Shown here one piece after another: positions 13,886 to 63,005 of a stretch of DNA of 64,000 bases; position 1 is the stretch's first letter, and each line of letters opens with the position of its first letter. The notes beneath the pieces were generated by a model. That model was not told where the DNA came from. It saw only the letters and a program-made list of their open reading frames with translations, and ran no database searches. The translations under genes and the position numbers were made by a program. This DNA comes from Rhizophagus irregularis (taxonomy: Eukaryota > Glomeromycota > Glomeromycetes > Glomerales > Glomeraceae). The stretch is from positions 3,288,501-3,352,500 of the forward strand of contig NC_089453.1 of assembly GCF_026210795.1 (NCBI RefSeq), written 5' to 3'.

Positions 13886-14974
13886 CTTTTATTTACTTTA
13901 TCTTTTAAATTAGAAGACATTAAAAAGTTGTATCTATTGTTGTTTTTTTATTTTAAATAAATTTTTGTTATTTTATGAATATTATGCTACTAAAAACTAA
14001 AAATTTATGTCTATCCTAATTTAAAAATTTATAAATGATATTAATTATATATTAATACTTGATTTTGGCATAATGAAATTTGTAAATTGGAATTAATTTG
14101 TAATTCTTTGTAATTATATATCAGTATAAATGTATAATCTAAAATTATTATTAAAAATATTATTATATACATCATATACTTTGCAGAAACCTTGAATTTT
14201 TGCAAGGTATCGTTATATTGTTACTAAAACATACATAAAATATATTTAGTGATGATCCTTTTTTTTTAATGAATTGTTCCGACATTAATCCAGTATCGCA
14301 ATGGGATTTCACATGACATTTAGGCTGTACCAAAACAATTCTTTTTATAATATTGTTAATTCATCAAAAATATATAAAAAAAAAGCATATTATAGGTAGG
14401 GATCGAAAAAGATTTGATTAAAATCAAAACTATCAAAAATTGATAAGAATCGATTTTAAATCGAATCTTGAATAAAAATCGAATCTACTTATTGTGGCGC
14501 AGTTTTGTTAATTAATGACTGTAAATTATTATTTGTTCATAATAGTTTATAAAGGTGGATCCCTTAATTTTAGCCAAATTCATAATTCTGGCCATGAATC
14601 ACATGACAGAACACAAACTTCCTAAAAAGAAAATTTTATCTCAATAAAATTCAAGTTGCTATCGCACAAGGTTGTACAAATTTCCAAAAAAGGAAATTTG
14701 TTCATCAATCACAGTTAATTTTGTAATCACGTGATATGTGTTTAAACACCTCTATTATAAATAGTATAAAAAAAAATTGGTGATTAATCATGATTAAATC
14801 GAATTCTAATAATAGGAATCAATTCCAATTCCTAATTATAGGTATTGTCACAGTATTTTAAAAATATCAAAAATATCTTAAAATTTTGGGAAAAGCTCCT
14901 AGTATTTATATATCATGTGATATGCCACCAGTTTGATCTTTTTTTAATATGAACTATTTTTTAAATTTTTTTTT
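13886..14974. other. gene-free A+T-rich stretch
   Basis: No coding signal was found. The stretch contains a partly self-complementary segment at about 14,400-14,850, with GATTTGATTAAAATC-like and GATTAATCATGATTAAATC-like ends. It may be an old inverted-repeat element, but no target-site duplication could be fixed. One TCACGTGA palindrome lies near 14,727. Confidence 0.35.
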
Positions 14975-15540
14975 TAACTTCTTTCACTCGCTTTTTTCTT
15001 TTTAAAATAAACTTTTTTTAACTTTCTTTATCTCCCTTTCACTTGGTCTTTTTAAAATATTTTTTTTTAACTTTTTAACTTTCCTTTCACTCGCTTTTTT
15101 CTTTTTAAAATAAACTTTTTTTTAACTTTCTTTATCTCTCCTTTCACTTGGTCTTTTTAAAATAATTTTTTTAATTTTTTAACTCCCCTTTCATTCGCTT
15201 TTTTCTTTTTAAAATAAACTTTTTTTAACTTTCTTTATCTCCCTTTCACTTGGTCTTTTTAAAATATTTTTTTTTTACTTTTTAACTCCCCTTTCACTCG
15301 CTTTTTTCTTTTTAAAATAAACTTTTTTTAACTTTCTTTATCTCCCCTTTCACTTGGTCTTTTTAAATAATTTTTTTTAACCTTTTAACTCCCCTTTCAC
15401 TCACTTTTTTCTTTTTAAAATAAACTTTTTTTAACTTTCTTTATCTCCCCTTCCACTTGGTCTTTTTAAAACAAATTTTTTTAACTTTTTAACTCCTCTT
15501 TCACTTGCTTTTTTCTTTTTAAATTTTTTTTTTAACTCAC
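14975..15540. repeat. tandem repeat, about 103-bp period, 5-6 copies
   Basis: A pyrimidine-rich unit containing CCTTTCACTCGCTTTTTTC and then TTTCACTTGGTCTTTTTAAA recurs about every 103 bp (CACTCG-type landmarks near 14,986, 15,088, 15,192, 15,296, 15,398 and 15,502). Copies differ by small indels and substitutions. No open frame spans the array. Confidence 0.9.
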
Positions 15541-16851
15541 TTTTTCCCTCCATTATTTCTATTTTACTTCCTTTATTTTTCCCTTTGTTCCTTGTACTCT
15601 TTTCTTTCCTTTTTTCATATTTTGTTTGATAAAGAGTTGGAAAGTACCCATAAAAAAAATCAAATTCTATAACATTATAAAGTTTTATTTTTATTTTTTT
15701 TTAGGTGGCTTCTGGACGTGACATTTCATAAGTTTTTAAAGAACTCTTTTTTCTTAAACATTATTTCATAGATTTTCTACTTTTTTTATTTTAATTATTA
15801 TTTTGATCAAACGTTCAAACATTTATTACACTTCTTGCTTCTCTTCTCTTTAGACAGATTGTGTTTCAGTATTTGGTTGCATGAAATCCTTTTTTTGAAT
15901 ATTTCAGTTTGCTTTCTTTTAGATGGGTCTAGGCACACGGAATTTAGTTGGATTATTTTGTTTTTAGGCAGCCAGTTTTTTGATCCCTGGATCTTCTTAG
16001 ACATGTTGGTTTTTGGGTAATATTTTGTTCTTTTTTAATTTGTTTATATTAACAAACAGGTATTCATACTTCATTATTTTTTTCTTAGATAGCCTCTTCT
16101 GGTTTCTTTTTACAGGATTTGGGAAGTTTTTTTTTCATTTTTCTTTAATATTATTGATGTCTAAATGAAATAAAATGAAGAATGGTAAAGGCGAAACAAA
16201 GTAGTAACTGCACAAAGAAAGAAGAAGAAACTTGGTTGCAAGGAAGAGAAAGAAGAGAGTAGTGCAATAAGTTTATGATAAGTGAAGTCCTTAGTAAGAT
16301 TGGAAGCATATTTTGTTAAACTACTACTAAAAAATAGAAGTAGGGGAATAGCAGGAAGAAAGTAGAGAAAAGAGAAAAGAGGTAGTAATATAATAATGGA
16401 TACATCTATTTGAAGGAAGCAAAAATAAATTAATAACTTCAATTCTTTATCTGCAGGCATATCTAAAGAGATCAATCAGGTGATACTTTTGTCCAAATCA
16501 GGTTCCCATCTTGTTATAGTTGTGTCACCAGGAGTGCTATGTCAACGGAAATTTAGTATGTTGATCACTTAAAAATCTGTGGCTATCCAATTATAACAAG
16601 AGGAAAGAAAAATAATGGTAATTGTATAGTGATGGGATTAATTTTTACATTAGATAATATATTTATAATGTTGGTGCTGTATTTGACACCATATACAGAT
16701 CACACTATATAGTTAACGATATTAGGTGATCTTCATTTTAATAGTGATAGTCCTTGTAATTGGTTGTTATGCTAATCGTGCTATCCTGGAAAGGAAGGAA
16801 AATTTTACTAATTTGGTTAGCTCTTATGCGCTAAGTATAGGGTACGTTTTT

Positions 16852-31953: not shown

Positions 31954-31961
31954 CATCTAAT
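31954..31961. repeat. left target-site duplication CATCTAAT
   Basis: An octamer identical to 49,398-49,405, directly abutting the CACCCC terminus of the giant element. Confidence 0.95.
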
Positions 31962-32093
31962 CACCCCATTCGCCTGATCGGCAAAGGATATAACCTTATC
32001 CATCGTGTCTCAAATGCATAGGTTATATCCTCCATGGAAACCACGGTTTTTATTGGCCAATACTAAGCAGTGATCATGTGACCTTATAAGTGT
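31962..32093. repeat. unique outer part of the left terminal inverted repeat
   Basis: The inverse of about 49,266-49,397. It contains an internal inverted pair, GGATATAACC at about 31,986 and GGTTATATCC at about 32,021, which could be transposase binding sites (inference). Confidence 0.9.
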
Positions 32094-34270
32094 AGACATT
32101 TTATCCTCGTAACTTAAGGACATAATTGTCTTAATAAATTTGAGGACATTTTTGTCCTCATAATTTTGAGGGACATATTTGTCCTTGTAAATTTTGAGGA
32201 CATTGTTGTCCTTGTAAATTTTGAGGACATATTTGTCCTCGTGATCTTGAAGACACTGTTGTCCTTATAATTTTTGAGGACATGTTTGTCCTCGTAATTT
32301 TGAGGGCATTGTTGTCCTTGTAAATTTTGAGGACATTTTTGTCCTCATAATCTTGAGGACATTGCTGTCCTTGTAAATTTTGAGGACATGTTTGTCCTCA
32401 TAATCTTGAGGGACATTGTTGTCTTTGTAAATTTTGAGGACATATTTGTCCTCGTGATCTTGAAGACACTGTTGTCCTTATAATTTTTGAGGACATCTTT
32501 GTCCTCGTAATTTTGAGGGCATTGTTGTCCTTGTAAATTTTGAGGACATTTTTGTCCTCGTAATGTTGAGGACATTGTTGTCCTTGTAGATTTTGAGGAC
32601 ATGTTTGTCCTTGTAATCTTGAGGACATTGTTGTCCTTGTAAATTTTGAGGACATTGCTGTCCTTGTAAATTTTGAGGACATTGCTGTCCTTGTAAATTT
32701 TGAGGACATGTTTGTCCTTGTAATGTTGAGGACATTTTTGTCCTCGTAATAATCTTGAGGACATTTCTGTCCTTGTAAATTTTGAGGACATGTTTGTCCT
32801 CATAATCTTGAAGGACATTGTTGTCCTTGTAAATTTTGAGGACATGTTTGTCCTTGTAATCTTGAGGATATTGCTGTCCTTGTAAATTTTGAGGACATTG
32901 CTGTTTTTGTAAATTTTGAGGACATGTTTGTCCTTGTAAATTGTAATGTTGAGGACATTTTTGTCCTCGTAATAATCTTGAGGACATTTCTGTCCTTGTA
33001 AATTTTGAGGACATGTTTGTCCTCATAATCTTGAAGGACATTGTTGTCCTTGTAAATTTTGAGGACATGTTTGTCCTTGTAATCTTGAGGACATTGTTGT
33101 CCTTGTAAATTTTGAGGACATGTTTGTCCTTGTAATCTTGAGGACATTGCTGTCCTTGTAGATTTTGAGGACATGTTTGTCCTTGTAATCTTGAAGACAT
33201 TGCTGTCCTTGTAAATTTTGAGGACATGTTTGTCCTTGTAATGTTGAGGGCATTGTTGTCCTTGTAAATTTTGAGGACATGTTTGTCCTTGTAATGTTGA
33301 GGGCATTGTTGTCCTTGTAATGTTGAGGGCATTGTTGTCCTTGTAAATTTTGAGGACATGTTTGTCCTTGTAAATTTTGAGGACATGTTTGTCCTTGTAA
33401 TCTTGAGGACATTGTTATTCTTGTAAATTTTGAGAAATTTTGAAATTGTGATTCTCGTAATTTTGATGATATTGCTATTCTCATAATTTTGATTGTTCTT
33501 GTAAATTTTGAGGACACTATATCCTTATAAATTTAAGGACATTTTTGTCCTTATAATTTGAAAACATTTTTGTTCTTGTAATTTGAGAACATTATTGTCC
33601 CTATAATTTGAGAATATTTTTGTCCTCATAATTTCGAGGACATTTTTGACCTCATAGTTTGATGATATTGTTATACTTGTAATTTGAGCTTGTAAATTTG
33701 AGACCATTTTTGTTCTTGTAATTTTAATTATATTGCTGTCCTCATAATTTGAGGACATTTTTGTCCTCATAATTTTGATGATATTGTTGCCCTCGTAAAT
33801 TTAAGGATATTATTGTCCTTATAATTTTACAGACATTTTTGTACTCGTAATTTTGATGGTATTGCTGTCCTCATAATTTAAGGATGTTTTTGTCCTTGTA
33901 ATTTGAGGACATTTTTGTCCTTGTAATTTTGATTATATTGCTGTCCTCATAAGTTGAGGACATTTTTGTCCTCGTAATTTTAATGATATTGTTATCCTCA
34001 TAATTTGAGGACATTATTGTCCTTGTAGTCTTGCCCTATAAAAAAATTTTGTGCTTTATTTGTGCCAAATGGGTTAATCATATGATATTTATTTAGAATT
34101 TGTTTGAATTTTATATAATTTTTAGTACAAATTTCGAATAAATATTGCATGATTAGCCCATTTGGCACAAATTTAGCACAAACCTTTTTTATAGGGCTGA
34201 TGATCATTGTTGTCCTTGTAAATTTTAGGACATTAGTAAATTTGAGACATTTTTTTATGTCCTCATGATT
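32094..34270. repeat. left-arm palindromic tandem array
   Basis: About 80 imperfect units of 26-27 bp of the form TTGAGGACATTTTTGTCCTC plus a TAA-rich spacer. Each unit holds a small palindrome GAGGACA-NNNN-TGTCCTC. Units near the outer side are regular, while those after about 33,430 are more decayed. Minus-strand open frames of up to 302 aa here are repeat read-through and not genes. A 163-bp MITE sits inside at 34,034-34,196. Confidence 0.93.
34034..34196. mobile_element. 163-bp MITE with CCCTATAAAAAA ends, in the left arm
   Basis: Inverted ends CCCTATAAAAAAA / TTTTTTATAGGG, followed inward by GTGCCAAATGGG / CCCATTTGGCAC and AATCAT / ATGATT. Flanking triplets are TTG and CTG, an imperfect 3-bp duplication. 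It interrupts the array, so it came later. The same terminal dodecamer is used by the element at 62,443-62,737. Confidence 0.82.
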
Positions 34271-34347
34271 CATATTTTTTGTATAGTGGTAATTTAAAAT
34301 TAACTTTTATTTCATTATTTAAAATGTTAAAATGTATTAATATTATT

Positions 34348-34498
34348 CCCAGTAAATAGTTTTTGTATTAATTTGTACCAAATGGGCTCATCCATATATA
34401 ATTTGGCTTAAATTTGGATTATTTTTTGCATAAATTTGAGCTAATTTCGAGCCAATGAGCCCGTTTGGTATAAATTTATACAAAAACTATTTACTGGG
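34348..34498. mobile_element. 151-bp MITE with CCCAGTAAAT ends
   Basis: Inverted ends CCCAGTAAATAGTTTTTGTA / TACAAAAACTATTTACTGGG, then TACCAAATGGGCTC / GAGCCCGTTTGGTA. Flanked by an exact 3-bp duplication, ATT (34,345-34,347 and 34,499-34,501). The inner CCAAATGGG block resembles that of the MITE at 34,034, so the two are probably related families. Confidence 0.87.
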
Positions 34499-34831
34499 AT
34501 TTAATGGACATATCACATATATATACACATATATATATGAAAAGCTCTAAATATTACATAAAAATAAGACTTTATAAATGCAAAAAAATTTGTTCTTATA
34601 AACAACCTGTAATGTAAGAAATGCGGAAATCAATTTTATGATTATTTAATCAATCTTTAAGATTATTATTTCTCTTCATCTGTTTATTAATGAAAAATTA
34701 ATTAATTCAAATGTATTGATTAAATTATAATATAGCAACAGATTTGATTACATGAATTAAACTTGTTGAGTATTTTATTTATTATTGATTAATATTATTA
34801 TTCTTATTGCACTAATTAGTTCACTAATATC

Positions 34832-36364
34832 CTATTCATTTTGTTCAAATCTAATGTTATAAAGTGAATCCAGAACTTTAATTCTTTCTTCTTCTTTAAG
34901 ATTAGAATAATCCTGAAATTCAACATCTAATGGCCATCCTATAACTTTATATGAAGTTTGTGTTTTCCATCTTTTATATGGTATATTATTACCTTTTACA
35001 TCTTGTTCTATAATATAATTACAGTAAATGTTATTTTTAAATTAAACTTGAATTAAAATTAATTGAATACTTACCAAACTTTTGCCGCAAAATAAATCTT
35101 ACTTTATTTCTTGTTTCAATGCTATTAGGTTTTGAAATATTGATAGCAGATAGATTAAAAGTATGTCCAGTTTCAGATTCATCTGGCAAAATTTCAGATG
35201 ACTTAGTTTCAGCAACAGATTTGATTACTCCTTCATTTTCTTATATACAGAATAAATACATACAGGTTGTTGTTAAAAAATCAAATGTAATATATAATAA
35301 TATATGAACATTATATCCCTTTTTTTTTAAAATAGAGAAACAACGAAATGGAATGATTGCATCACTTAAGTTGCTATAAGTCTGATAAAATTCTTCACCA
35401 ATATTTGATCCAAACCAATGACTTCTAAGCTCATCATAATTGGATACAGCCAATGTAATAAACTCCATGCCACAAGTGACATGTAAAGTTCGAAACTACA
35501 AGTTGTAATTTATTATTATTACAAAATTAGATTGATACTACCAAGATAATATTAATTTACCATTTTTCGGATATCTTGAATTCCATTATTTAGTTGTGTT
35601 TTTCGTGATTTTGCATTTGTAATAAATGAGTTTTGCTCTTTAACACGTAAATTTGCAGCATTTTTAGCTTCTTCTTCATAATATTTACGTGTATCATTAT
35701 TTAATGCATTCCATGCATCTGCACAGAGTTTTTGGGACCCTTTATCTTTAATATTTAAGCCTTTAAAATAAAGTAAAATTGTTAAAACATTGAAATTTAA
35801 ATTTTAAGTAATATAAATCAGTTTATATATACACACCTTTTCCATGTGTTGCCCACCAATTAGATTGCCAAATATTAAATCCACTGATTTTTCTTTGTTT
35901 TCTAATAGCAGGTTCTCTATAATCTTTCATTACACTCTAATATAAAATGAGCATTTTAAATATCAAATTTTTAAGGATTAAACATTATTAAGTTTGCCTA
36001 CCTTAATAAAATATGAATGCACATTAAGTTCATTAGCTAATAATTCAATTTCAGAATCATGCTGTTGCTGCAAATTTTTAATTTTTGCAAATGCTTCTAC
36101 ATTTAATTCTGAAACTATAAATTGTTAAATTATTAGTATTTATTCCTTTTTTAAAAAAAATTACTAAATAAAATATTTTATTAAATTAAATTTATAAAAT
36201 TTGCATTTAATAAAATCTAGTATATCAACCCATTATACTGTTTAGCCAAAAATATATTTTAGTTTTTTTATTCTATTTTTCTATTCTTTGTTAGCATATA
36301 TTCTTGTATTTTATAAATATTTACCACTTAAGTCAGAATCTAAGTCAAAGTTATTATTTTCCAT
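34832..36364 (-). CDS. HMG-box-like protein carried by the KDZ element
   Basis: Multi-exon gene on the minus strand. The start is the ATG at 36,364, giving MENNNFDLDSDLS. Exons 36,364-36,325, 36,114-36,002 and 35,936-35,837, and the one starting at 35,760, join in frame through GT-AG introns. They spell RKISGFNIWQSNWWATHGKG and then GSQKLCADAWNALNNDTRKYY-EEEAKN. This matches an HMG box: Phe near the start, Trp in the middle, a W-x2-L-x3-xRxxY helix and a basic/acidic tail, so DNA binding is likely. Later exons hold FITLAVSNYDELRSHWFGSN, INISKPNSIETRNKVRFILR and a C-terminus with YKVIGWPLDVEF. One junction near 35,290-35,330 could not be settled: a stop follows if no splice is made. A late frameshift is therefore possible. 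The role in transposition is unknown. Confidence 0.68.
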
Positions 36365-36618
36365 CTCAATGAACGAAGCCAAGAATAACGCGTAACAATG
36401 CGTCATAATATAACATATATATATTTGCCGATCAGTCAGGTGATAAAACGTTATTTCAAAAAATTATATATCTTAATGTAAATTTACAATCTAAACAAAT
36501 TTATTGTATTATCTCATAGTAAATCCACCAAATTTTATTGATTTTATTTAATAACAAGATAGAATAAAACAAAAAGAGAAAGTACATGTAAAAAAGTAAA
36601 TAATAATGTCTAACTACT

Positions 36619-38524
36619 TTAATTTGCAACATTGCTTTCGTTACTTTCACTATCTTCCGTATCTAGATCCATATTATCTTGCATATTAGGATTTTGAAAT
36701 AAAATTTTGATCGTTCCTAGTTTTAAATCAGTCAAAAATATATCGTAATAATAATCTGTAACTTCAAAATTTGAAATGTTAAGACCAGTATTTACTAACT
36801 GATCAAGCGTAATCCCAATATTAATTAATTTATATATTCTAAAAGCACTTTTCTTTTGTCGCCGTTCAGTTCTAGTATGAATACCTAATTGGGTGCACAT
36901 AAAGTTTCGTTCAAATCTTCTTTGTTCTCTCTCATCATTTGGATGTTTTTCCACTGAAATGATATGTAAATCATTGTAAATATAAACAAGTGACATTCGA
37001 TGATAAAGCTTATAAGCTTTAGTAGCAAGCTCAACTTGTTTAGAATGATTTTTTTGATCGACCCATTGCGTAATTCTTTCCTTAGCAGACTCTTCATCTG
37101 TAATTTGAATTGGTTCTGAAGTCATAACTTTTAAAGCCTGGTTAAAATTTGTGCGAATTTGGTAGTCTTTAATTTCTACTAAAGTCTTGTTCTCAATGGT
37201 TTTTACTACCAAACTATTTAGACTTTTTCCAAAATTAGAATATTTTTTTTTCTTTTCACTTTCTTGTGATTCTGTTATTTAATTTAAAAAATTCAATCAA
37301 ATTATAAAAATTAAAATAAATTTAGAATTATCAATATTTTAATGTCATTTACCTTTGCTAGCAATAACTTTTTTCTCAAAATTTTCAACTACCATATTAC
37401 GACCTTTTTTAATATAAGAATATAGATTGATTAATTATGGTAAATTTATAATATCAATATATTTTAATAAAACAAATAAATTAATATAAGCCATATAAAT
37501 AAATATTATTGCTACTTGAAATTCTTACCTTCTTCCTTTTTTTTCATAAGAGTTATATTAACTTTATTAATCCAAAGTTCAACAAGTAAATAATATTGAT
37601 TAAATTTATCCCAAATTGTATAAGAAGGTAATGTTTTTTCTGCCCATCGTAATTCTTCTATATCAGTTGATTCTTTAATAAGTTCTTCAAAACCAAATTT
37701 TTCATGACAACGTTTATTTAGTGACTCCCAAACATCATCTGGATTGCTTTCTATCGTAAATCCCATTTGATGTAAATCATTTACAAGTATATTAATATGG
37801 TCATTATTTCTTTGTAGTGAAGTATTATCCTCATCTTCACTATCTGAACTAGAAACTATTGTTGAAGAGCTTTTTGACATATTAATTTGGTCGGATTTTC
37901 TTCTGAACTTATTGATTTTTTTCTATTTGCAATTAAGAATTTCATTAAATTGAATTAATCTTTAAAACGTAAAAACTAAATTTAATATGCATTTACATTT
38001 ACCTCAAGATTATGATTATAAATTTGCAATGAATTTAACTCATCATTAAGTTGCTTATTTTTTATTTTTAATTTTTCATAAGTTTTTTCGGCAATTAGCA
38101 ACTTTTCCTAATATAAAATTAAATTATAAAGATAAGCTGCTTAAATTAACGTTAATAAACAAGGTTTATTATATATGTAAACCTTACTTGCAATTGATCT
38201 ATTTTCTTTACATGCTCAACATCGCAATTTTTTTCAGAATCCTAGAAGTTAAATTATTAAAATGATTACCATTTAATACTTTTATTAAAAAATTACAATA
38301 TATATAATTAAAATATTAATTATATGAACCTGATCGGTTATAATATAATTGGAATCTTCAAGGTTAACTGTTATCCTGTCAATACGTTTACCATAAGAAA
38401 TATTTGCAATATTATCTGTTATAGTAACATTACGTAACCGATATTTAGTTCTTCTCCAAATTAGTGATAATGCCTTGCTAATTTGAGTTATGTCATCTTC
38501 ACTTAAGGTAAATATTTCTGCCAT
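36619..38524 (-). CDS. coiled-coil protein of unknown function carried by the KDZ element (483 aa)
   Basis: Six exons: 38,524-38,330, 38,241-38,188, 38,107-38,003, 37,922-37,529, 37,403-37,353 and 37,271-36,619. They total 1,452 nt with all phases matching, so the gene is intact. Order of parts: an N-terminal module starting MAEIFTLSEDDITQISKALS; a Lys/Glu-rich coiled coil at about residues 66-120; a Ser/Asp-rich acidic linker (SSSDSEDED); and a middle module with CHEKFGFEELIKESTDIEEL and AEKTLPSYTIWDKFNQYYLL. Next come a basic segment and a C-terminal module with VYIYNDLHIISVEKHPNDE, FERNFMCTQLGIHTRTERRQ and ILFQNPNMQD, ending in an acidic tail. I recognise no known domain. It lies between the transposase and the HMG-box gene, in the same orientation, which suggests a joint role in the element. 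Confidence 0.75.
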
Positions 38525-38683
38525 ATTTTTGTTATCAATAATACAGACTTGCTTATAATACTCTTAAGAAAAAATAAGGTCATAGTATTTCCTTTTAAAA
38601 ATTTTTGGTTTTATGTATATAATGCATATCCACAATACAAAATATAAAGCTTACCAGTTTAGCTTTTATTTTGAACTTTTAAT

Positions 38684-38800
38684 CAAATAGAGCATAGAGC
38701 AAAAAAAATAGACGTGATGTTTATGGTCAAATAGAGCAAAAAAAAAAATAGACGTGATGTTTATGGTCAAATAGAGCAAAAAAAATAGACGTGATGTTTA
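38684..38800. repeat. three tandem copies of a ~38-bp unit
   Basis: The unit contains TCAAATAGAGCAAAAAAAA and TAGACGTGATGTTTATGG. It lies 160 bp upstream of the coiled-coil gene start (that gene runs to the left) and may be part of its control region. Confidence 0.8.
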
Positions 38801-38869
38801 TTTTATATTCTTAAATGTTTCACAAAATGATACATATTCTGAAGCATTACGCACCTGTGATAAAAATAG

Positions 38870-39310
38870 TTTGCTATTTTTAGTATTGAAAAACGCGTTT
38901 AACTCAATAAACATTTAAGATAATACTAAAAATAGTTTACTATTTTAGTATTGTAAAAACGCGTTTAACTCAATAAACGTTTACTATTTTAGTATTGAAA
39001 AACGCGTTTAACTCAATAAACATTTAAGATAATACTAAAAATAGTTTACTATTTTAATATTGAAAAACGCGTTTAACTCAATAAACGTTTGAGATAATAC
39101 TAAAAATAGTTTACTATTTTAGTATTGAAAAACGCGTTTAACTCAATAAACATTTAAGATACTACTAAAAATAGTTTACTATTTTAATATTGAAAAAACG
39201 CGTTTAATTCAATAATGAGATAATACTAAAAACAGTTTACTATTTTAATATTGAAAAACGCGTTTAACTCAATAAACATTTGAGACTATTTTTATATTTT
39301 TAGTATTGAA
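38870..39310. repeat. ~60-70-bp palindromic tandem array (seven copies) upstream of cargo gene
   Basis: Seven copies of AAACGCGTTTAACTCAATAA (copies near 38,892, 38,952, 39,001, 39,065, 39,127, 39,197 and 39,256) alternate with AATACTAAAAATAGTTTACT-ATTTTAGTATT, which is itself a hairpin. Each copy thus has a small AAACGCGTTT palindrome and a larger A+T hairpin. It is inside the KDZ element, about 350-790 bp upstream of the coiled-coil gene. It may be an enhancer, an origin-like site or a protein-binding array. Confidence 0.85.
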
Positions 39311-39319
39311 AAAACATGT

Positions 39320-42300
39320 TTAATTAGATATCAGACAATAAACTTGTCCCAGATTTATTAGATTTATTTGAGATGATACTAAAATTAGTAAACTATTTTT
39401 ATTACAGGTGTAAAATTATTTACTCCATATTCCAATCTGCAAACATGGTAAATTTTTTGTAGACATTTGTACAGCTTTTTAAATGATTATTTTAACAAAA
39501 TATTGCTAATGTTTCTTTTTTTCTAGATTTTAGGTATTTCTTTAGATGGAATATTGACATTTTGAAAGAATTTATACTAAAATATTTTTTTTTGTTGCTT
39601 CTTTTAATAGAATGTCAAATAACATTTTATTTTATATTTGAACATTTCTATATATGTATTTCTACATTTCAAAGGTATATACCAAAATGTTTTTTTGTTT
39701 TTGAATGAAAAGTTAGCTAATGTTTGTAGGACTACAGAATTTAAGCATGTGAATTTTATTGTTCTTTTACCTTTTAGACATAATTACTTTTTAATCTTGT
39801 TATTTTTTATCTTTGGAATGTGATTTTTGTTGTTCTTCATCTTTGGGAGTAATCATTTTTTTTTTAATATTACATTAAAAAAATATAATTTGACCAGTAC
39901 TCTAAATTATCTCTAAATAAATGTTTATCAAAATGTAAATGCATGAATGAATTACTGAAATAGCTATAATATTAGTGTCTATATCATTGATTTACCTTAT
40001 CACTATTTTCGCATTTTTTATTAATTAAAATATTTGTATTTTTAATAAAATTTCGCTCAAAAACATATAAAAAATTTTAACACAAAAAAATTTTTTTCTG
40101 GGGTCTGAAGACCCCCCAGACCCCCTCCTTAGGCCTTTTTTTTTTTATCATTTATTAATTTTTTTCTCAAATTTATTATTATTATTTTTAATTTTTTATT
40201 ATTTATTTACATTTCTTATTCATTGTAAAACGTGAAAGCTACAATAAAATAAAAATAAGTAATAATATTATTAGTATAGTAATATTATTCATATATACAG
40301 TTTTTAAAAAAAGTAATCAGAACTATAAAAAATGCAAAAAATAAAGAATCATAATTAGAATACCTTTAAATTTTGCAAATTTGTTAAAATTTTAAAAAAT
40401 ACTTAAATACTTACTTAAATATTGTCAATCTGCCTATATTTTTATTAAAAAAACTATAAACATAAAGGGTTAATTTATTGAAAAATTTGTTTTGCTAGTT
40501 TTTTATTAAATTAAAATTAAAATTGACTCAAAATTTAAATTTTTAAAATTAAGATAAATTTAAATATATTAAACTTAAATTAATATTTTTTTTATTTATT
40601 TATTTTGAAAATTATTGATTAAAACTAAATATAAATGTTGATCATCATGATTAATTTTAATATATTAAACTTAAATTAATAATTTTTTTTTTATTTATTT
40701 TGAAAATTATTGATTAAAACTAAATATAAATGTTGATCATCATGATATTTTCAATAACTATCAAATAATAAAGTGTTAAACTTTTTTTAATAAAATTGAT
40801 AGTATAAATCAAAATTTTAATTATTCAATTTTTAATAAACTGGCAAATTGAATGCTTTATAAAAATTTAATATTTTTCATAGCTTAAATTTTTAACAAAT
40901 TTTTTTTCAAGATAGAAGGTTGAAATTTTATACACATAAAGTTTGTAACTTTGTATATTTAATAACAAATTTATAAAATTTGAAGAAGCCCTAATCACCA
41001 GTTTTTTATTTTTTTGCATTTTTTTTTGTAATTCTAATTTCTAAATACTTTTTTTGAGGAATGTAAATAGGTTTTTGTTAATTGTATATTTATAAAATGT
41101 ATTGCATATTATTATACATTACTGTACATCATCATACATTGGTCACTATATAATGCATATTTTCTTTATGCTTAAAATAGACAACATTAATACTAATGCA
41201 TATGATTATAAGTTTTCTAGTCAATCCTTTTTAAAAAATTTTAACCAGGCTTTTATTTTTTTTAATAAGTATTAGGGTAGTATGGTTTTGTTTAATAAAT
41301 TTGTTAGAGAATTTTTTTAAGAATTATTTCATTGGAATTTTTTTTAGGAATTTGTTTTACTAATAGTTCTTTTGTCAGAAGATAAATTTTATAATTTGAA
41401 TAAATTTATAATTTTAATTATTGTTTTAATAAATATTAAAAAATAAATTACTAATATGTGAAAAAATCAAAAAAAGGATACAAATTTAAAAACAGTTTGT
41501 AATGAGTAAAAAAAAATGCTTTTTATAGCAATTATTGTTATACTTCTAATCTTTTTAAAGGTTTCTGCTATCTATTTTGTAATTGATATCTTTATATACC
41601 ACAATAAAAAAAGCAAAGACAAATTGTCTATTGTCCATATAGCTTATTTATTAGAATTCTATTTTAGCTTAAATTCTTTTAATTTTATCTTTAGTTAATC
41701 TGTTATGTAATTTAATTTTATTTTCATTATCTATTTCAGATTTTTTTTAATTTTATTTCATAATAATATTTTTTAATTTATCTTTAATTAATTATTAATA
41801 ACCTTTTTTGTATTATTTAGTTTCAGATTTTTTTTAATTTTACTAATTTTATTATATTTGTAATTTATTATTTTCTTAAATTTATAGTTAATTTACCTGA
41901 ATAATTCTTTTAAATTATTTTAGCATTTTTATTTTTATTTTTATGACACTTTTATTTTATTTTTTTAACTCCATTTATTTAATTTTATTTAATTAAATTT
42001 ATTTACTGTTTAATAATTTTAAAAATACTAATATCTTCATAATAAAAAAATCAACATTAAAGGAAAAAAAATTAGTATTTTAAATTTGAATATTAGGAAT
42101 TTAAATGCATATTATTTAGTGTGTTAAAAGCATATTTTTCATACAATAATTACTAGTAATTTAATCAGTTGATAATTATTATTTAATAAATAGATAAAAG
42201 TTTATTAAATATATCTAAATTTGAGTTTTATAGCAAGTTTACTTTTTTTGTTATCTAAAATATGGCTGCTTTAGCTTGGATGCAAAAGTATTGATCTTGA

Positions 42301-42783
42301 CCAATCAGATGGTATTTTCTTGACACATCAAGGAATTTCTTATAATTCCTAGTACCCATTAAAATTTAAAACCTTGATCTTTTATTTTTATTAATTAAAA
42401 AAGGCATTTGAATGCCATCATTTAAAAAAATAAATTATACAGATATATCATTAAATAAATTTTTTTCTAAGTATTTTTTAACAAATAATAATAAATAACA
42501 ATGAGTTCACATAATAATAATCATTATTGAAATTTTTTTTAATTTTTTTTCTAATAGTATAAACTGGTATGCAAGAAAAATTCATACAAAATTTTCTTTT
42601 TTTATAATATATAATACAATAATATGTATAAATTTATTGTTGTGTATACTATGCTAAATATTCAAATAAATCACAAAATGAAAAAGTAAAAATGTCCAAC
42701 TGAGGTAAAAGTTCTGGTATCCACCTCTTTCAATATTTTTATAATCATTATATTATTACTTCTTTCTGTTCTTTAATTTTATC
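39320..42783. other. A+T-rich spacer inside the KDZ element
   Basis: No coding gene was recognised on either strand in this 3.4-kb stretch. It holds a GC-rich hairpin at 40,100-40,115 (GGGGTCT-GA-AGACCCC, then another AGACCCC). It also holds a tandem duplication of about 95 bp at about 40,563-40,744 (each copy ends AAATGTTGATCATCATGA). It may be the decayed remains of further cargo. Confidence 0.5.
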
Positions 42784-45700
42784 TTAATCTTCATTTTCCT
42801 CTTCTTTATTTTCTTTTTCTTCACTCTCCTCTTCTTCACTCTCCTCTTCTTCATTTTCTTCTTCCTTATCCTCTACTTCCTCATTCTCTTCTTCATATCT
42901 TTCTTCTTCATCTTCCTCAATAAAGTTAAAATCCTCATCATAAATAATATTTTGATTATTATCATCGTCTCCAAAAATCTTATTTTTCATATTTTTAGCT
43001 ATTTCTAAATTTAATGATATCTTATCTAACTCTTTCATTAAATTGCAATATATTCCATCCTAAAATAATAAAATTTATTAATTTATTAATAAAGTAATTC
43101 AATCATATAAATTTATTTACCTTTTTTTCCTGAAATTTAATAGCTTTTTCAATGAGTTCCTTTTGTTCTAACCAAAAAATAACAAGTCTTGTAATTTCAG
43201 ATTTGACAAGTTCTTGCTCTTCTTTACTTCTATTAAGGTTATTGAAATTTTGTATTGCATTGTACATAATAATTCGTGGTATATTGCAATTTTCATCTAA
43301 AATAATATCTAGTGATATCCAAAAATTAGATTGATTATCTAAAACATTCTTGATTGATGCTGTTAGATATTTTTTCTTTTGTGTAGACGATAAAAATTCT
43401 CTTGTTTGATTATAATTTTCAATTGTCTTATTTATATTGGTTAATGCATTAGCATTCAAATTTTTAATTTTTGATGCTAACTTTTGACCTTTTAAAAATA
43501 ATATTATAATTAATATATAATTAACAATTTATACATTACATATAAAAAAATTTTATTACCTTTGTGAAATTCATTATATAAATAAGATGAATTGAATAAA
43601 TATTCATTTCTTTCTTTTCTCAATCCATCAATAAATTTAGATAGTTGATTAATACAATAAAATTCAAGATATGCACTATATTTTGAATCCATAGGATCCC
43701 ACCGATGTGTTTTAGGTATACTTAATGATATTTCATAATTTTCAATTTTTTTAAGTATATTATCATGTTTTTTTCTTAAAAGTTCTTTCTTCTTTATATT
43801 ATTAATCTTTGTAGTTTCAATGCTAATAGTAGAATTATAAAATTTTAGTATTCTATTAATAATTGCAAATTATTACAATATATAATGCAATACACTAACT
43901 TAATACTTCTTAATTCCATTAATAATTCAAAGTATGCATGTTCTCCTTCTAAATGATGCTTAAATGCTAATGGTAAAAAAATATTAGTTATATACAATCT
44001 AACATATTTTAATAATAATATTTATACTGTACCATATTCAGAAGTCTTTTGTTTTTCTATTGTTTCTTCAATTAACTTGAAATCTATATTATGTTGTTGA
44101 TTTAGAAGACTTAATTTTTCTAATGATTCATGTTCTACTTTTTTTGCATTTTTGTATCTCTTGAACAGATTATTTGCTATAATAAATAAATAATAATTAG
44201 TAATTTACTTTTAGAAAATAATTATAATCGATAATATACATTTCAAACCTAATTTTTCTACAGATTTTTGATAATGAAATTCAAGTGCTGTTCCTATAAT
44301 ATCCAATCTATGACCAAATTTCATATATTTAGTAGTTTTGGCAAATTTACCAAGGTAAGACCACAATCTCTCCAGTGATTCACCATCAGTAAGACCTACT
44401 GATTTAATTACCCTTGGATGGTATTTTTGTTGGCATTTTGATGTATGGGCATATGCATGAAATATAGAAACTGCCCATGTAAATCTTTCACGATAAGGGT
44501 AAAGGATATTGTTTGGATTGGCAATATGAGCATCAAGAAAACAAGCAATATCATATAAAAATATAAATTTCTGATTTGATTTTGAAAATTGCTGTTGAAA
44601 ATGATCAATTAAACATTCTGCTAGAACATATCTAATTAAATTATTTAATAATTATTAAATTAATATGAATAATAATATTATAATAGTCAAATTTATTTAT
44701 TACCTTTCACCCATATTACGCAAATTTAAAAATTTTAAGGGAATTCCATGCCGACATGTACTTCCAAATATTCCTGTATCATCTAAATGTTTAAATTTTT
44801 GAAGAGATTTTATTTGGTTAGTGGCCTTAAAATTGGATTCACATGATGTTGGCCCGGTCTATTTTTTTAAAATAAATAAATAAATAAATAAATAAAAATT
44901 AAAAATCTGATATATGTTAATAAATATATTAACAACTTATATAGCTTATAAATAAATTAATATTTACCTCGGATTTATTGTTATTATTCATTAAGTGAAT
45001 ATTAGTAGTTGAAGCTTGATTATTTGATAACAACCAACATCTAAAATTATCTTCAGAAATAATAAATCTATCATTAACTAATCGATTTTCAACATCATTT
45101 CCCGCACTTTTTAATCTTTTTAGCTGAAAGTTTCCATCAAATGCTATAATAGTATTTGAATTTTCTTCATTTGGCTAAATAAAAGTTGTAAAAATATTAT
45201 AGTTAGCTTTTATTAATTATATTGATTAATGTTTTAATAAAATATTGGTCTAAAGAATGAATATAATATTTTTATACTATAAATATGAATTATTTATTTT
45301 GTTATAAATAAGTAAAAATAAAAATATACTTGTGGACATGCAGGACATCCAAACTCATTATCATTATTTTTATAAGCTTTTCTAAAATTAGTCTGAATTC
45401 TTGATTTCAATCCAAGATATTGATGAAATGAAGAAATAAATGAATGATATATATTCTACAAATTATATAAAATTAGAATTATTACAATAAAATTTTAATA
45501 TATAAAGCTGAAAAACTTACTTGTGTTATAATTTGTTTACTTTGTAATGCTTCTAAAACTTTGCAAAATGCCAAATATGGCACATGTGCTTCAAAAAGTA
45601 ATTTATAATAAAGTTCAAATACTTCAAAATCAAAAGCAAGTGAAGGGTTGCAAGGTGTTGCAGGAAATAATCCATTTTTGATTAATGAATTTACATTTCC

Positions 45701-46570
45701 ATCACATGCTGGAAGCTGAATATAAAACCATCCTAAAATATAAACAATTAGAATTATAAATTATTAAATAACTGAAGTTTAGAAAAATTAAAGTTACTTT
45801 AGTTACCTTTTAATGTAATTGTTAAAATTCTAATTATAGAATGCTCACAATTTCCTTCACATAATTGTGGCAATTTTACATCATTTGATTGAATTTGAAA
45901 ATTTTCAAATATAAGAGTACGATGAAATAAATTGACCTTGTGATGAAAAATATTAAAACATGAATTACAATAAAATATTTTTGTTCCACAATCCAAGCAC
46001 CTTAATACAGCCAAATTATTACAATTAATGCAAGTTGCATTGCTTGGAATTGCTTCATTTTCTAACATAATATTATAAATATCATCCATCCCCATTTTCC
46101 AATTTGTTGAAAGTGTAATTTGTCTTTGTTGATAACTAATATTTTTGTGATTGGATTTATTATCAGCAAATTCTATTTCACCAGTATTTTCATATTCATC
46201 ATTCTTTGCTTCTAAAATTTGCTTAACTTGAAGTTTTGTATAACTGGATGCTTTATACTTATTTATTCCTTTAGAAAATTTATTGTTTATAACTCTTCCA
46301 GCATCTTTATTATTAAAGGAAACTCTATAAGGTCTATAAAATTTTGGTCCTTTAAATGTAAAATAAAGCGGAAAATTGTTATTACATCTTAAAAAATTTA
46401 AACTTTAATTATATTGACTGACCTTTTTTTGTTTTAGTATTAAGAGTATTTTTCTCAAAATTCATAGAATTTATCTCTTTAACCTTAAATTTAATAAATA
46501 AAGATGTTTATATTAGTATTCATAAATTATTTTTAACATTATTAAAACATACTTTGTTGAAATCTGACAT
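42784..46570 (-). CDS. KDZ-type (Kyakuja-Dileera-Zisupton) DDE transposase
   Basis: A gene of many exons, about 1,000 residues. The start ATG is at 46,570 (MSDFNK, then an intron). Exon 4 has a CxC-type zinc module, CINC-x8-CLDCGTKIFYC-x2-C-x4-H (about 45,955-46,045). Next come YIQLPACDGNVNSLIKNGLFPATP (split by no intron, about 45,655-45,735), a CPACPQ pair, and AFDGNFQLKR with the first catalytic Asp (codon at 45,136-45,138). Then come TGIFGSTCRHGIPL, FLYDIACFLDAHI with the second Asp (44,550-44,552), and FHAYAHTSKCQQKYHPR. GLTDGESLERLWSYLG carries the catalytic Glu (44,379-44,381). The C-terminus is helical and ends in a Glu-rich tail. This order is diagnostic of KDZ transposases. It would cut and paste the surrounding element. 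No frame break was found, though a few splice sites towards the 3' end are not certain. Confidence 0.93.
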
Positions 46571-46794
46571 TTTATTAATTAAAAAAAATCGAAAAAGATC
46601 AATTATTAAGATAATCTCTTTATATGATATTAATGAATGATCGGCAAACAAAAATGCAAATCCAACTGTTACCTACGTAAATGATCATAAGATTAATATG
46701 AATTATGGAAAATGATATATGAATGTAGTCTATTTAATTAAGATACAACATATAGATAAAAATAATCTCTAATAATTAAATCCAAAAATGTGAG

Positions 46795-49265
46795 GCAACT
46801 CAAGTAATGAAGACAAAATGTTTTTAAAATTATGAAAACACAAGTTACAAGGATACAATATCTTCAAATTATTACAAGGATAAAAATATCCTCAAAATTA
46901 TGAGGATAGCAATATCATTAAAATTACAAGGACAAAAATGGCCTCAAATTTACAAGTACAGCAATGTATATTCTCAAAATCTACAAGTACAACAATGTTC
47001 TCAAAATTATAAGGATAGCAATATTATCAAAATTATAAAGACAAAAATGTCCTCAAAATTATGAGGACAGCAATATCATCAAAATTATGAGAACAATAAT
47101 ATATATTATCAAAATTATGAGGACTAAAATGTTCTCATTACAAGGACATCAAATTTATAAGGACAACAATGTCTCAAAATTATGGGGACAGCAATATCAT
47201 TAAAATTATAAGAACAAAAACATTCTCAAATTACAAGGATAAAAATGTCCTCAAATTATGAGAATAGCAATAACATTAATATTATGAGGACAATAATATC
47301 ATCAAAATTATGAGGACAAAAATGTCCTCAAAATTATAAGGACAAAAATGTCCTCAAAATTATGAGGATATATAGCAATATCATCAAAATTATGAGAACA
47401 ATAATATATATTATCAAAATTATGAGGACTAAAATGTCCTTAAATTGCAAGGACATCAAATTTATAAGGACAACAATGTATGTTCTAAATCTACAAAAAC
47501 AACAATGTCTCAAAATTATGGGGACAGCAATATCATTAAAATTATATGGACAAAAACATCCTCAAATTACAAGGATAAAAATGTCCTCAAATTATGAGAA
47601 TAGCAATAACATTAATATTATGAGGACAATAATATCATCAAAATTATGAGGACAAAAATGTCCTCAAAATTATAAGGACAAAAATGTCCTCAAAATTATA
47701 AGGACAAAAATGTCCTCAAAATTATGAGGATAGCAATATCATCAAAATTATGAGAACAATAATATATATTATCAAAATTATGAGGACTAAAATGTCCTTA
47801 AATTGCAAGGACATCAAATTTATAAGGACAGCAATGTATGTTCTAAATCTACAAAAACAACAATGTCTCAAAATTATGGGGACAGCAATATCATTAAAAT
47901 TATAAGGACAACAACATCCTCAAATTACAAGGACAAAAATGTCCTCAAATTATGAGAACAGCAATAACATTAATATTATGAGGACAATAATATCATCAAA
48001 ATTATGAGGACAAAAATGTCCTAAAAATTATGAGGATAGCAATATCATCAAAATTATGAGGACAAAAATGTCCTCAAAATTATGAGGATAGCAATATCAT
48101 CAAAATTATGAGGACAAAAATGTCCTCAAAATTATGAGGATAGCAATATCATCAAAATTATGAGAACAATAATATATATTATCAAAATTATGAGGACTAA
48201 AATGTCCTTAAATTGCAAGGACATCAAATTTATAAGGACAACAATGTATGTTCTAAATCTACAAAAACAACAATGTCTCAAAATTATGGGGACAGCAATA
48301 TCATTAAAATTATATGGACAACAACATCCTCAAATTACAAGGACAAAAATGTCCTCAAATTATGAGAACAGCAATAACATTAATATTATGAGGAAAATAA
48401 TATCATCAAAATTATGAGGACAAAAATGTCCTCAAAATTATGAGGACAACAATATCATCCAAATTATGAGGACAAAAATATCATCAAAATTATGAGGACA
48501 AAATATCATGAGAACAAAAATGTTCTCAAATTTACAAGGACAACAATGTATGTATGTTCTCAAAATTTACAAGGACAACAATGTTCTCAAAATTATAAGA
48601 ATAGCAATATTATCAAAATTACAAGGACAAAAATGTCCTCAAACTTATAAGAACAGTAGAGGACAGCAATATCATTAAAATTACGAGAACAATAATATTA
48701 TCAAAATTATGAGGACAAATATGTCAGGACATCAAATTTATAAGGACAACAATGCATGTTCTCAAAATCCACAAAGACAACAATGTCCTGAGGACAGCAA
48801 AATCTTCAAAATTATAAGGACAAGAATGTCCTCAAATTACAAGAACAAAAATGTCCTCAAATTTACAAGGGCAATGGTATTCTCAAAATTTACAAGGACA
48901 ACAGTGTCCTCAATATTTACAAGGACAACTATGTCCTCAATATTATGAGGTCAAACATGTCCTCAACTTACGAAGACAACAATGTCCTCAAGATTATGAG
49001 GACAAACATGTCCTCAAAATTTACAAGGACAACAATGTTCTCGGACAAATATGTCCTCAAAATTTACAAGGACAGCAATGTCCTCAAGATTACGAGGACA
49101 AAAATGTCCTCAAAATTTACAAGGACAGCAATGTCCTCAAGATTATGAGGACAAAAATCTCTTCAAAATTTACAAGGACAACAATGCCCTCAAAATTATG
49201 AGGACAAAAATGTCCTCAAATTTATTAAGACAATAATGTCCTTAAGTTACGAAGATAAAATGTCT
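46795..49265. repeat. right-arm palindromic tandem array
   Basis: The inverse of the left array: units of ATTATGAGGACAAAAATGTC-CTCAAA type, regular from about 48,850 to 49,220 and more varied inward. It includes a higher-order repeat of about 350-450 bp; the block starting TATATATTATCAAAATTATG recurs at about 47,405, 47,765 and 48,175. It is about 0.3 kb longer than the left array. Open frames across it are repeat read-through. Confidence 0.92.
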
Positions 49266-49397
49266 ACACTTATAAGGTCACATGATCACTGCTTAGTATT
49301 GGCCAATAAAAACCGTGGTTTCCATGGAGGATATAACCTATGCATTTGAGACATGATGGATAAGGTTATATCCTTTGCCGATCAGGCGAATGGGGTG
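49266..49397. repeat. unique outer part of the right terminal inverted repeat
   Basis: The inverse of 31,962-32,093 with about two differences. Ends GGGGTG. Confidence 0.9.
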
Positions 49398-49405
49398 CAT
49401 CTAAT
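49398..49405. repeat. right target-site duplication CATCTAAT
   Basis: Identical to the octamer at 31,954-31,961. Confidence 0.95.
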
Positions 49406-62284: not shown

Positions 62285-63005
62285 GATATGATGGATGATG
62301 AAAAGAGTGATGGGAGACGAAAAGAAGTGGTGGGAAGATGAAGAGGAGTGATGGGAGACGAAAAGAAGTGATAGAGACGAAGAGGAGTGATGGGAGACGA
62401 AGAGGAGTAATGGGAGACGAAGAGGAGTGATGGGAGACGAAGCCCTATAAAAAAAGAAAATTCGGAATTTGTCCTGAAAAGTATGGAAAATGTCCGGAAA
62501 TTTTCCGTGCGTCCGGAAAACATTCGGAAACGGTCATGTTTTGGAACATTTTCCGGACGCTCGATTCTGGACAAATTCCGGACAAATTCTAGAGTGTCAA
62601 GAAAATGTCTGGAATTTGTGCGTCCGGAAAATGTTCCAAAACGTGACCGTTTCCGAATGTTTTCCGGACGCACGGAAAATTTCTGGACATTTTCCATACT
62701 TTTCAGGACAAATTCCGAATTTTCTTTTTTTATAGGGAAGAGGAGTGATGGGAGACGAAGAGGAGTGATGGGAGACGAAGAGGAGTGATGGGAGACAAAA
62801 AGGAGTGATGTGAGACGAAAAGAAGTGATGGGAGACAAAAAAAAATGATGGGAGACGAAAAGAAGTGATGGGAGACGAAAAGAAGTGATGGGAGACGAAA
62901 AGGAGTGATGGGAGACGAAAAAAAGTGATGGAGACAAAAAGAAATGGGAGACGATGAGAGACGAAAGGAAGTGATGAGAGACAAAAAGAAATGATGGGAA
63001 GTAAA
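62285..63005. repeat. 20-bp minisatellite GTGATGGGAGACGAARAGRA
   Basis: About 20 units of a 20-bp purine-rich repeat, split by the MITE at 62,443-62,737. Minus-strand frames (Ser-Phe-Arg-Leu-Pro-Ser-Leu-Leu pattern) are direct read-through of the unit and not proteins. Confidence 0.9.
62443..62737. mobile_element. 295-bp near-perfect palindrome MITE with CCCTATAAAAAA ends
   Basis: Arms of roughly 130 bp: CCCTATAAAAAAAGAAAATT / AATTTTCTTTTTTTATAGGG, then CATTTTCCGG-type and CGTCCGGAAAA blocks near the middle, rich in TCCGGA. Flanked by an exact 3-bp duplication, AAG. It shares ends with the MITE at 34,034-34,196 but not its inner sequence. Confidence 0.88.

Follow-up and report, generated by a model that had tools for sequence, protein, structure and literature searches.

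Are the extra genes and satellite-like ends of a giant DNA transposon baggage, or are they parts of the machinery that moves it? The question is raised by a 17.4-kb element of the glomeromycete Rhizophagus irregularis, which lies in a 64,000-nucleotide stretch of contig NC_089453.1 (assembly GCF_026210795.1, positions 3,288,501 to 3,352,500, forward strand; hereafter the window, in whose coordinates we report). A first-pass annotation, made from the sequence alone, had called the element a complete KDZ-type DNA transposon, and the domain, the terminal inverted repeats (TIRs), the 8-bp target site duplication (TSD) and the multi-copy spread all bear this out: it is a complete, real and recently mobile KDZ DNA transposon present in several copies. 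The three genes and the one-palindrome arms that it shares with related lineages suggest a dedicated DNA-recognition system, and the main interest lies in this common plan of three genes and one palindrome more than in the single copy.

A complete and recently mobile KDZ transposon

The element and its ends are as follows.

31962..49397, no strand assigned: complete KDZ transposon of 17,436 bp, the family A copy that lies in the window (C25)
31954..31961, no strand: left 8-bp TSD, CATCTAAT, identical to the right copy
49398..49405, no strand: right 8-bp TSD, CATCTAAT, identical to the left copy
31962..32161, plus strand: left TIR, outer 200 bp, starting CACCCCATTCGCCTGATCGGC, by alignment to the right end
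49198..49397, minus strand: right TIR, outer 200 bp, by alignment to the left end

The limits proposed by the first-pass annotation are exact to the base, and the exact 8-bp duplication it had described, CATCTAAT, stands at both flanks, outside termini of the form CACCCC...GGGGTG. It had also put the difference between the outer ~200 bp of the two ends at about three positions; we measured 3 differences when the outer 200 positions were aligned. Without gaps, the mismatches fall at offsets 43, 144 and 162, and from offset 211 onward, already within the satellite arm, the similarity breaks up. Among the remaining 17-kb copies the corresponding counts are 5, 5 and 23 differences per 200 aligned positions.

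Three genes, all on the minus strand, were modelled by hand with GT..AG introns.

42784..46570, minus strand: KDZ transposase gene, 13 exons, 950 amino acids, without internal stop in the inferred splice model
36619..38524, minus strand: ORF2, 6 exons, 483 amino acids, whose last exon encodes a conserved C-terminal domain
34832..36364, minus strand: HMG-box-like gene, 7 exons, 314 amino acids, inferred splice model
Exons of the HMG-box-like gene, minus strand: 36364-36325, 36114-36002, 35936-35837, 35760-35561, 35495-35345, 35239-35075, 35007-34832
38525..42783, no strand: interior with no recognised gene, where only short frames were found and no scan against families was made

The transposase matches the KDZ profile PF18758 over residues 328-558 with an E-value of 1.6e-47 and 162.4 bits (cut-off 26.6). 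The first-pass annotation had claimed all three catalytic residues, and candidates are indeed present by domain position at D333, D468 and E525, which we take to be catalytic; the same motifs occur in the transposase of a second lineage (lineage 2, below). An N-terminal cysteine cluster scores below the cut-offs for both CxC2 (23.4 bits, cut-off 27) and CxC1 (21.2, cut-off 26.9), and a B-box-like zinc cluster at residues ~133-166 reaches 26.8 bits against a cut-off of 27. ORF2 belongs to no known Pfam family, its NUDE_C match (E 0.005) falling under that family's cut-off; the sole match of an ORF2 profile against the PDB was histone H1.0 (E 0.66), and a structure prediction for an ORF2 exon was poor (mean predicted local distance difference test score, pLDDT, 41.7) and was not used. 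Tandem repeats occupy 38694-39325 in the element interior.

We searched the genome in one assembly (146.7 Mb, 32 contigs, here given as C plus a number) with a 135-bp stretch near the left end (31966-32100) as query. Of 62 candidate places, 40 were scored. We read eleven two-ended elements from start to finish, four 17-kb ones (family A) and seven relatives (family B); all 11 have exact 8-bp TSDs, each of them different. The A copies measure 17,436 bp (C25, the window copy), 17,814 bp (C28, in the opposite orientation to the others), 17,040 bp (C20) and 17,122 bp (C17). Their interiors differ by 0.08-0.21% substitutions over the six pairs (10-26 differences per ~12,300 bases), and arm lengths, taken to a fixed interior anchor, vary by up to 477 bp on the left and 285 bp on the right. 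In good agreement with the recent movement proposed earlier, the interiors have thus hardly diverged. The first-pass annotation had named multiple complete copies, each between its own 8-bp duplication, as a mark of mobility, and this genome has them: 4 of 4 full-length copies, and 11 of 11 elements once relatives with the same ends are counted. The transposase and HMG-like frames are open in all four A copies. A separate observation is an 893-bp insertion in the C28 copy (around the window equivalent of 40962-42461), which has ACTGTACA on both flanks; no other A copy showed it.

The B copies are ~8.6-8.7 kb (C10, C12, C19 and C2), 10.6 kb (C11a), 23.4 kb (C29) and 33.1 kb (C11b) long. PF18758 matches none of the seven, and neither do the A proteins when compared by tblastn at E 0.01; in the core of the C10 copy the longest frame wholly within 2300-7200 is 107 amino acids. 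The two largest (C29:2907446-2930815 and C11:919605-952675) hold extra internal DNA with frames that look gypsy-like and LINE-like (long interspersed element) by eye, their TSDs being intact; we rejected them as carriers of cargo since the extra DNA holds these retrotransposon-like frames.

Unoccupied sites were sought with the joined flanks of the C10 copy (B), the C28 copy (A) and the window copy. The C10 flanks match five paralogous places uninterrupted across at least query positions 5-288 (76-79% identity), and the one of these that was read carries a diverged form of the C10 TSD. Four places match the C28 flanks at 71-83% identity: C2:3834382 and C3:2103627 extend 16-19 bases left of the TSD, the C2 site holding a single C28 TSD when read, and C29:1057373 and C26:2498421 barely reach the TSD. 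For the window copy the empty site is weak, because only 46 bp cross the junction (C25:1674807-1674849, with CATCTAAT once) and the right flank lies 270 bp away.

Palindromic arms and companion genes in four lineages

The satellite-like ends described by the first-pass annotation are two inverted arms.

32095..34027, plus strand: left satellite arm, ~1.9 kb, 26/53-bp units, 41 perfect GGACA-N4-TGTCC palindromes at 32144-34022
46845..49264, minus strand: right satellite arm, ~2.4 kb, facing the left arm in inverse orientation, with 21 perfect palindromes at 47314-49215

The window contains 62 GGACA-N4-TGTCC sites, every one of them inside these arms, against a mean of 0.00 in 100 dinucleotide-preserving shuffles. 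Genome-wide, the perfect longer form GAGGACA-N4-TGTCCTC occurs 327 times and its reversed control 0 times. Of the first 50 sites listed, 44 belong by position to lineage 2 loci and the other 6 to a B element; in the sequence that was read, A elements account for 73, B elements for 57, one lineage 2 copy for 32, part of the C9 copy for 18 and one-ended relics for 4.

A PF18758 profile search of the genome gave 23 exon matches, which group into 14 loci: the four A copies, five loci of lineage 2 (two on C4, one each on C2 and C9, and C10:3835556), one of lineage 3 (C5:498005), one of lineage 4 (C10:4200347), and three others (C15, C18 and C10:2778905). Homologue searches returned 45 matches for ORF2 and 24 for the HMG-like protein (the latter with a query whose last five residues came from a discarded splice model). 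Homologues of both genes are present at 11 of the 14 KDZ loci, namely all four A copies, all five lineage 2 loci, and lineages 3 and 4.

The one lineage 2 copy that was read (C4:2647032-2665125, 18,094 bp) has the TSD TGAAAATC, the TIR CACCCCAGCCAAATGATCGACATAG and arms of 55-bp units. Its transposase pieces are 31-62% identical to those of A, its ORF2 35-43% and its HMG-like protein 36-43%, the HMG-like gene differing from that of A in position and orientation; 19 of 28 outer TIR bases are shared with A. The lineage 3 element (C5:487168-504588, 17,421 bp, TSD CCTACCAC, 49-bp units) has 0 TIR mismatches in the first 400 bp, and its ORF2 and HMG-like proteins are 32% and 34% identical to those of A. 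For lineage 4 we found a left end, CACCCCATTCAACCGATCGACAAAGG at C10:4196724, and arms of 99- and 65-bp units, with 37% identity to A for ORF2 and 48-70% for the HMG-like protein. Both ends were thus located in three of the four lineages, giving lengths of 17.4, 18.1 and 17.4 kb. From A and lineage 2 one would expect CACCC ends, an 8-bp TSD and GGACA-N4-TGTCC arms; the arm motif was found in both lineages 3 and 4, and complete ends in one of the two. This expectation had not been written down before the lineage 3 sequence was obtained, and lineage 4 was named as a test before its analysis.

Between lineages the arm units have diverged in length (~26 bp in A, ~55 in lineage 2, ~49 in lineage 3, 65/99 in lineage 4) and in sequence, except for GGACA-N4-TGTCC. 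When spacers of 0-12 bases between GGACA and TGTCC were counted, a spacer of 4 was found in 225 of 225 cases in family A (four near-identical copies), 42 of 43 in lineage 2 (one copy), 32 of 32 in lineage 3 (two end stretches) and 19 of 20 in lineage 4 (end stretches; the remaining one is N7). This amounts to 318 of 320 counted cases across the four transposase-bearing lineages, a figure that overstates the sample because neither the repeats of one array nor copies that are almost the same can count as independent cases.

Another 16 loci with partial end matches were read, with both ends in the examined stretch for seven and one end for nine. The seven (a third group; L020, L021 and L025-L029, on C1, C2, C3, C4 and C9) are short elements of 93 bp (C1:6699668-6699760) to 5.7 kb that end in CACCCCA(T/C)TC(G/A)GGTGATCATC; their TSDs are exact over 8 bp in five cases, 7/8 in one and 6/8 in one. 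The TIR of the one element compared shares 23 of 28 outer bases with A, and L020 and L021 have tandem units of different sequence. Five one-ended loci (L024, L030, L031, L032 and L034) hold 1-7 palindromes each and are apparently remnants of A or B elements. One third-group element contains a nested gene that is hAT-looking by eye.

Two other repeats of the window are recorded here in their own right. A 20-bp minisatellite (GTGATGGGAGACGAAAAGA-like) at 62289-62999 turns up again, as judged by eye, next to the C5 element of lineage 3 (L043, 4466-5062), and a pyrimidine-rich 103/207-bp tandem array lies at 14970-15523, with a GC skew of -0.43 in the 15001-16000 bin, a strong strand skew.

Proposed function of the arms and companion genes

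We consider it likely, and say so with good confidence, that the element as a whole is a cut-and-paste KDZ transposon with accessory genes, whose arms are predicted binding arrays and whose B relatives would be moved in trans. The transposase would cut at the CACCCC...GGGGTG termini and insert with an 8-bp stagger, while ORF2 and the HMG-like protein would serve as accessory transposition proteins rather than as cargo. A dimeric protein of the module is predicted to read GGACA-N4-TGTCC; ORF2, the HMG-like protein and the zinc cluster of the transposase are all candidates, which the data do not separate. The HMG-like protein may bend DNA and so bring together ends that are 17 kb apart; HMGB1 is used by RAG and by Sleeping Beauty. 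The seven B relatives (8.6-33 kb) would most simply be mobilised in trans, because they keep the ends and the arms. In its working mode this arrangement resembles the CACTA/En-Spm elements of plants, in which subterminal repeat arrays are recognised by another DNA-binding protein that the transposon encodes in addition to its transposase. Those elements differ in their CACTA ends and 3-bp duplications and in an unrelated transposase that has no KDZ domain.

The evidence that weighs against this explanation concerns the arms, the companion genes and the completeness of the copies, and we take it together with the alternatives on which it bears. The arms could be passive satellite that grew by slippage and has no role in recognition, with the palindrome inherited from a common ancestor and the transposon itself real. 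Arm lengths do differ by hundreds of bases among copies whose interiors are ~99.8% alike, and family B, which has no KDZ match, shows relaxed spacing (of 311 cases, 193 N4, 100 N7, 10 N3, 5 N6, 2 N5 and 1 N10); such looser spacing fits a relaxed constraint, and it also weakens a strict reading of the 4-base rule. Common descent is further favoured by the TIRs of lineages 2 and 3, which are nearly identical (26 of 28 outer bases shared). The third group has the TIR and lacks the palindrome, GGACA-N4-TGTCC being absent from the nine loci L020-L023 and L025-L029, which means either that elements with ends of this kind do not all require the palindrome or that another enzyme is used. One palindrome lies in the lineage 3 interior, outside the arms (L040). 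Yet passive repeats do not readily account for units that diverged in both length and sequence between lineages save for this one palindrome, nor for a 4-base spacer kept almost without exception in all four transposase-bearing lineages, and we therefore regard passive arms as unlikely.

Less likely still is an origin of ORF2 and the HMG-like gene by capture from the host, as passengers without a role in transposition. This would suit the distribution of ORF2 homologues: 12 of 45 are at KDZ loci and 3 belong to a single decayed relic (C25:2345522-2346168), while the remaining 30 have no KDZ match beside them, many with long open frames. Two further points weigh against our main explanation. 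At the three KDZ loci on C15, C18 and C10:2778905 no companion gene was reported nearby, and in family A ORF2 is open in the window copy only, the other three copies each being off by one base in an A run; these changes may reflect decay or read error. Against a passenger role, both genes accompany the transposase at 11 of 14 KDZ loci and have diverged from those of A in lineages 2-4 (32-37% identity for ORF2 and 34-70% for the HMG-like protein in the homologue searches). Since the same pair recurs and is diverged between lineages, repeated independent capture is improbable. The first-pass annotation had spoken of cargo: additional genes are indeed present, but because they recur with the transposase they look like a module, and the companion genes are probably module rather than cargo. 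The 30 dispersed frames, which have no KDZ neighbour and are homologous to the ORF2 C-terminal domain (e.g. C21:3458972-3459409, L039), are an observation of their own. The one that was scanned matched no Pfam family; they are possibly domesticated, or a gene family that expanded independently.

The identity of the smaller companion has points on both sides. HMG_box_2 matches are below cut-off in the A, lineage 2 and lineage 4 proteins (E 0.011, 0.043 and 0.053), with Neugrin the next match for the A protein (E 0.025) and an unrelated family scoring slightly higher for the lineage 2 piece (E 0.034). A profile built from these three proteins and run against the PDB gave 31 distinct sequences at E <=1, of which 28 are HMG boxes; these are of four kinds only (SOX, TFAM, HMGB1 and BBX) and weak (best E 0.045), and the top match was toxofilin (E 0.02). 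The A region alone found no HMG box in the PDB, its matches being three protein A chains (E 0.15-0.42). We conclude that the small companion is a probable, not a proven, HMG-box protein. Two points touch the copies themselves: in the C17 transposase one modelled acceptor reads GG in place of AG, and the right end and TSD of lineage 4 were not found in the 6 kb examined on that side.

We give little credence to the proposal that the arms are mainly sources of hairpin or double-stranded RNA, or silencing or replication signals, instead of transposase sites. A 161-base piece of the left arm folds, as single-stranded DNA, far more strongly than shuffles (z -10.2). An array of palindromes folds by construction, however, and the fixed 4-base spacer and the place of the arms beside both termini fit protein recognition at least equally well. 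Finally, a single locus, an assembly artefact or a segmental duplication is refuted as far as one assembly allows: long similar arms are difficult to assemble, but there are four loci with different flanks, TSDs and arm lengths in both orientations, and unoccupied paralogous sites exist.

Place among known transposons and meaning

The element shows the features of the KDZ superfamily: its PF18758 match is above cut-off, and TIRs with an 8-bp TSD occur in 11 of 11 A and B elements as well as in lineages 2 and 3 (one copy each). hAT elements share the 8-bp TSD; no hAT match was found in the modelled proteins. A TET/JBP-carrying KDZ element was considered as well, and there was no TET/JBP Pfam match in the three modelled proteins, the interior 38525-42783 not having been scanned. 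Zisupton of fish, reportedly described by Bohne and colleagues in 2012, is said to be ~11 kb long with a 99-bp TIR, an 8-bp TSD and a single multi-exon gene.

Zisupton shares with our element the superfamily, the TIRs and the 8-bp TSD (the last two also in PMC12730594), and Dileera of Basidiomycota (Zisupton-1_PGr) shares the KDZ transposase and 8-bp TSDs (PMC12730594). Kyakuja of Basidiomycota is alike in its KDZ transposase and CA..TG ends and unlike in its 7-bp TSDs and the absence of TIRs in the families of PMC12730594, so that the 8-bp TSD and long TIRs rule this subgroup out. The Kyakuja and Dileera families described there carry a TET/JBP gene (PMC12730594), unlike the three proteins modelled here. 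Plavaka, with 2-3-bp TSDs and TGT or CATCA ends (PMC12730594), is ruled out by the 8-bp TSD and CACCCC ends.

Also comparable are KDZ1-KDZ3 of Cryptococcus neoformans, whose mobility has been demonstrated and which combine a KDZ transposase and a CxC1 domain with TIRs of 139-241 bp and TSDs of 8 bp (KDZ1) or 4-8 bp (KDZ2 and KDZ3) (PMC12810828). Like our element they have a KDZ transposase, TIRs and, in KDZ1, an 8-bp TSD; they are smaller (9.2-11 kb), the only transposase domains named are KDZ and CxC1, and the available text describes no palindrome arms (PMC12810828). The first-pass annotation had called the size unusual. Large it is, but not unprecedented for KDZ: Ectocarpus has elements of up to 30.3 kb, and a KDZ element of 31.7 kb is active in Chlamydomonas reinhardtii (PMC12477816). 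These giants resemble ours in size, accessory genes, nested insertions and non-autonomous relatives presumably moved in trans; their accessory genes are mostly of unknown function, and the parts available describe neither an ORF2 and HMG pair nor palindrome arms (PMC12477816). Because giant KDZ elements with accessory genes are known from Ectocarpus and Chlamydomonas, our element is novel neither in its size nor in its class. In the available parts of PMC12730594, PMC12810828, PMC12477816, PMC9297572, PMC8226300, PMC11258239 and PMC11075540 no KDZ/Zisupton element with HMG genes or palindromic arms was found, which does not prove that none is in print. A published curated R. irregularis library used a KDZ profile, and where its results turn to new families, none of those named is a KDZ family (PMC11075540). 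In viral contigs searched with the transposase core, 8 pattern matches yielded 0 relatives by tblastn, which detects close relatives only.

It is possible, though we hold this more tentatively than the explanation given above, that these elements form an undescribed lineage of giant KDZ transposons that brings its own equipment for recognising and bending DNA. In that case a module of three genes and a palindromic cis code would have been kept while the arms diverged, large transposase-less elements would exploit that code, and ORF2 would have multiplied (~30 matches), perhaps into domesticated regulators.

The case bears on the way in which the transposase of a giant DNA transposon locates two ends separated by 17-18 kb and brings them together. 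One genome offers four related lineages in which the arm units diverged and the palindrome with its 4-base spacer and the companion gene pair stayed, so a DNA site and candidate proteins can now be named for a direct binding test. Lastly, a recent multi-copy transposon with transposase-less relatives is a marker for strain comparison in R. irregularis.

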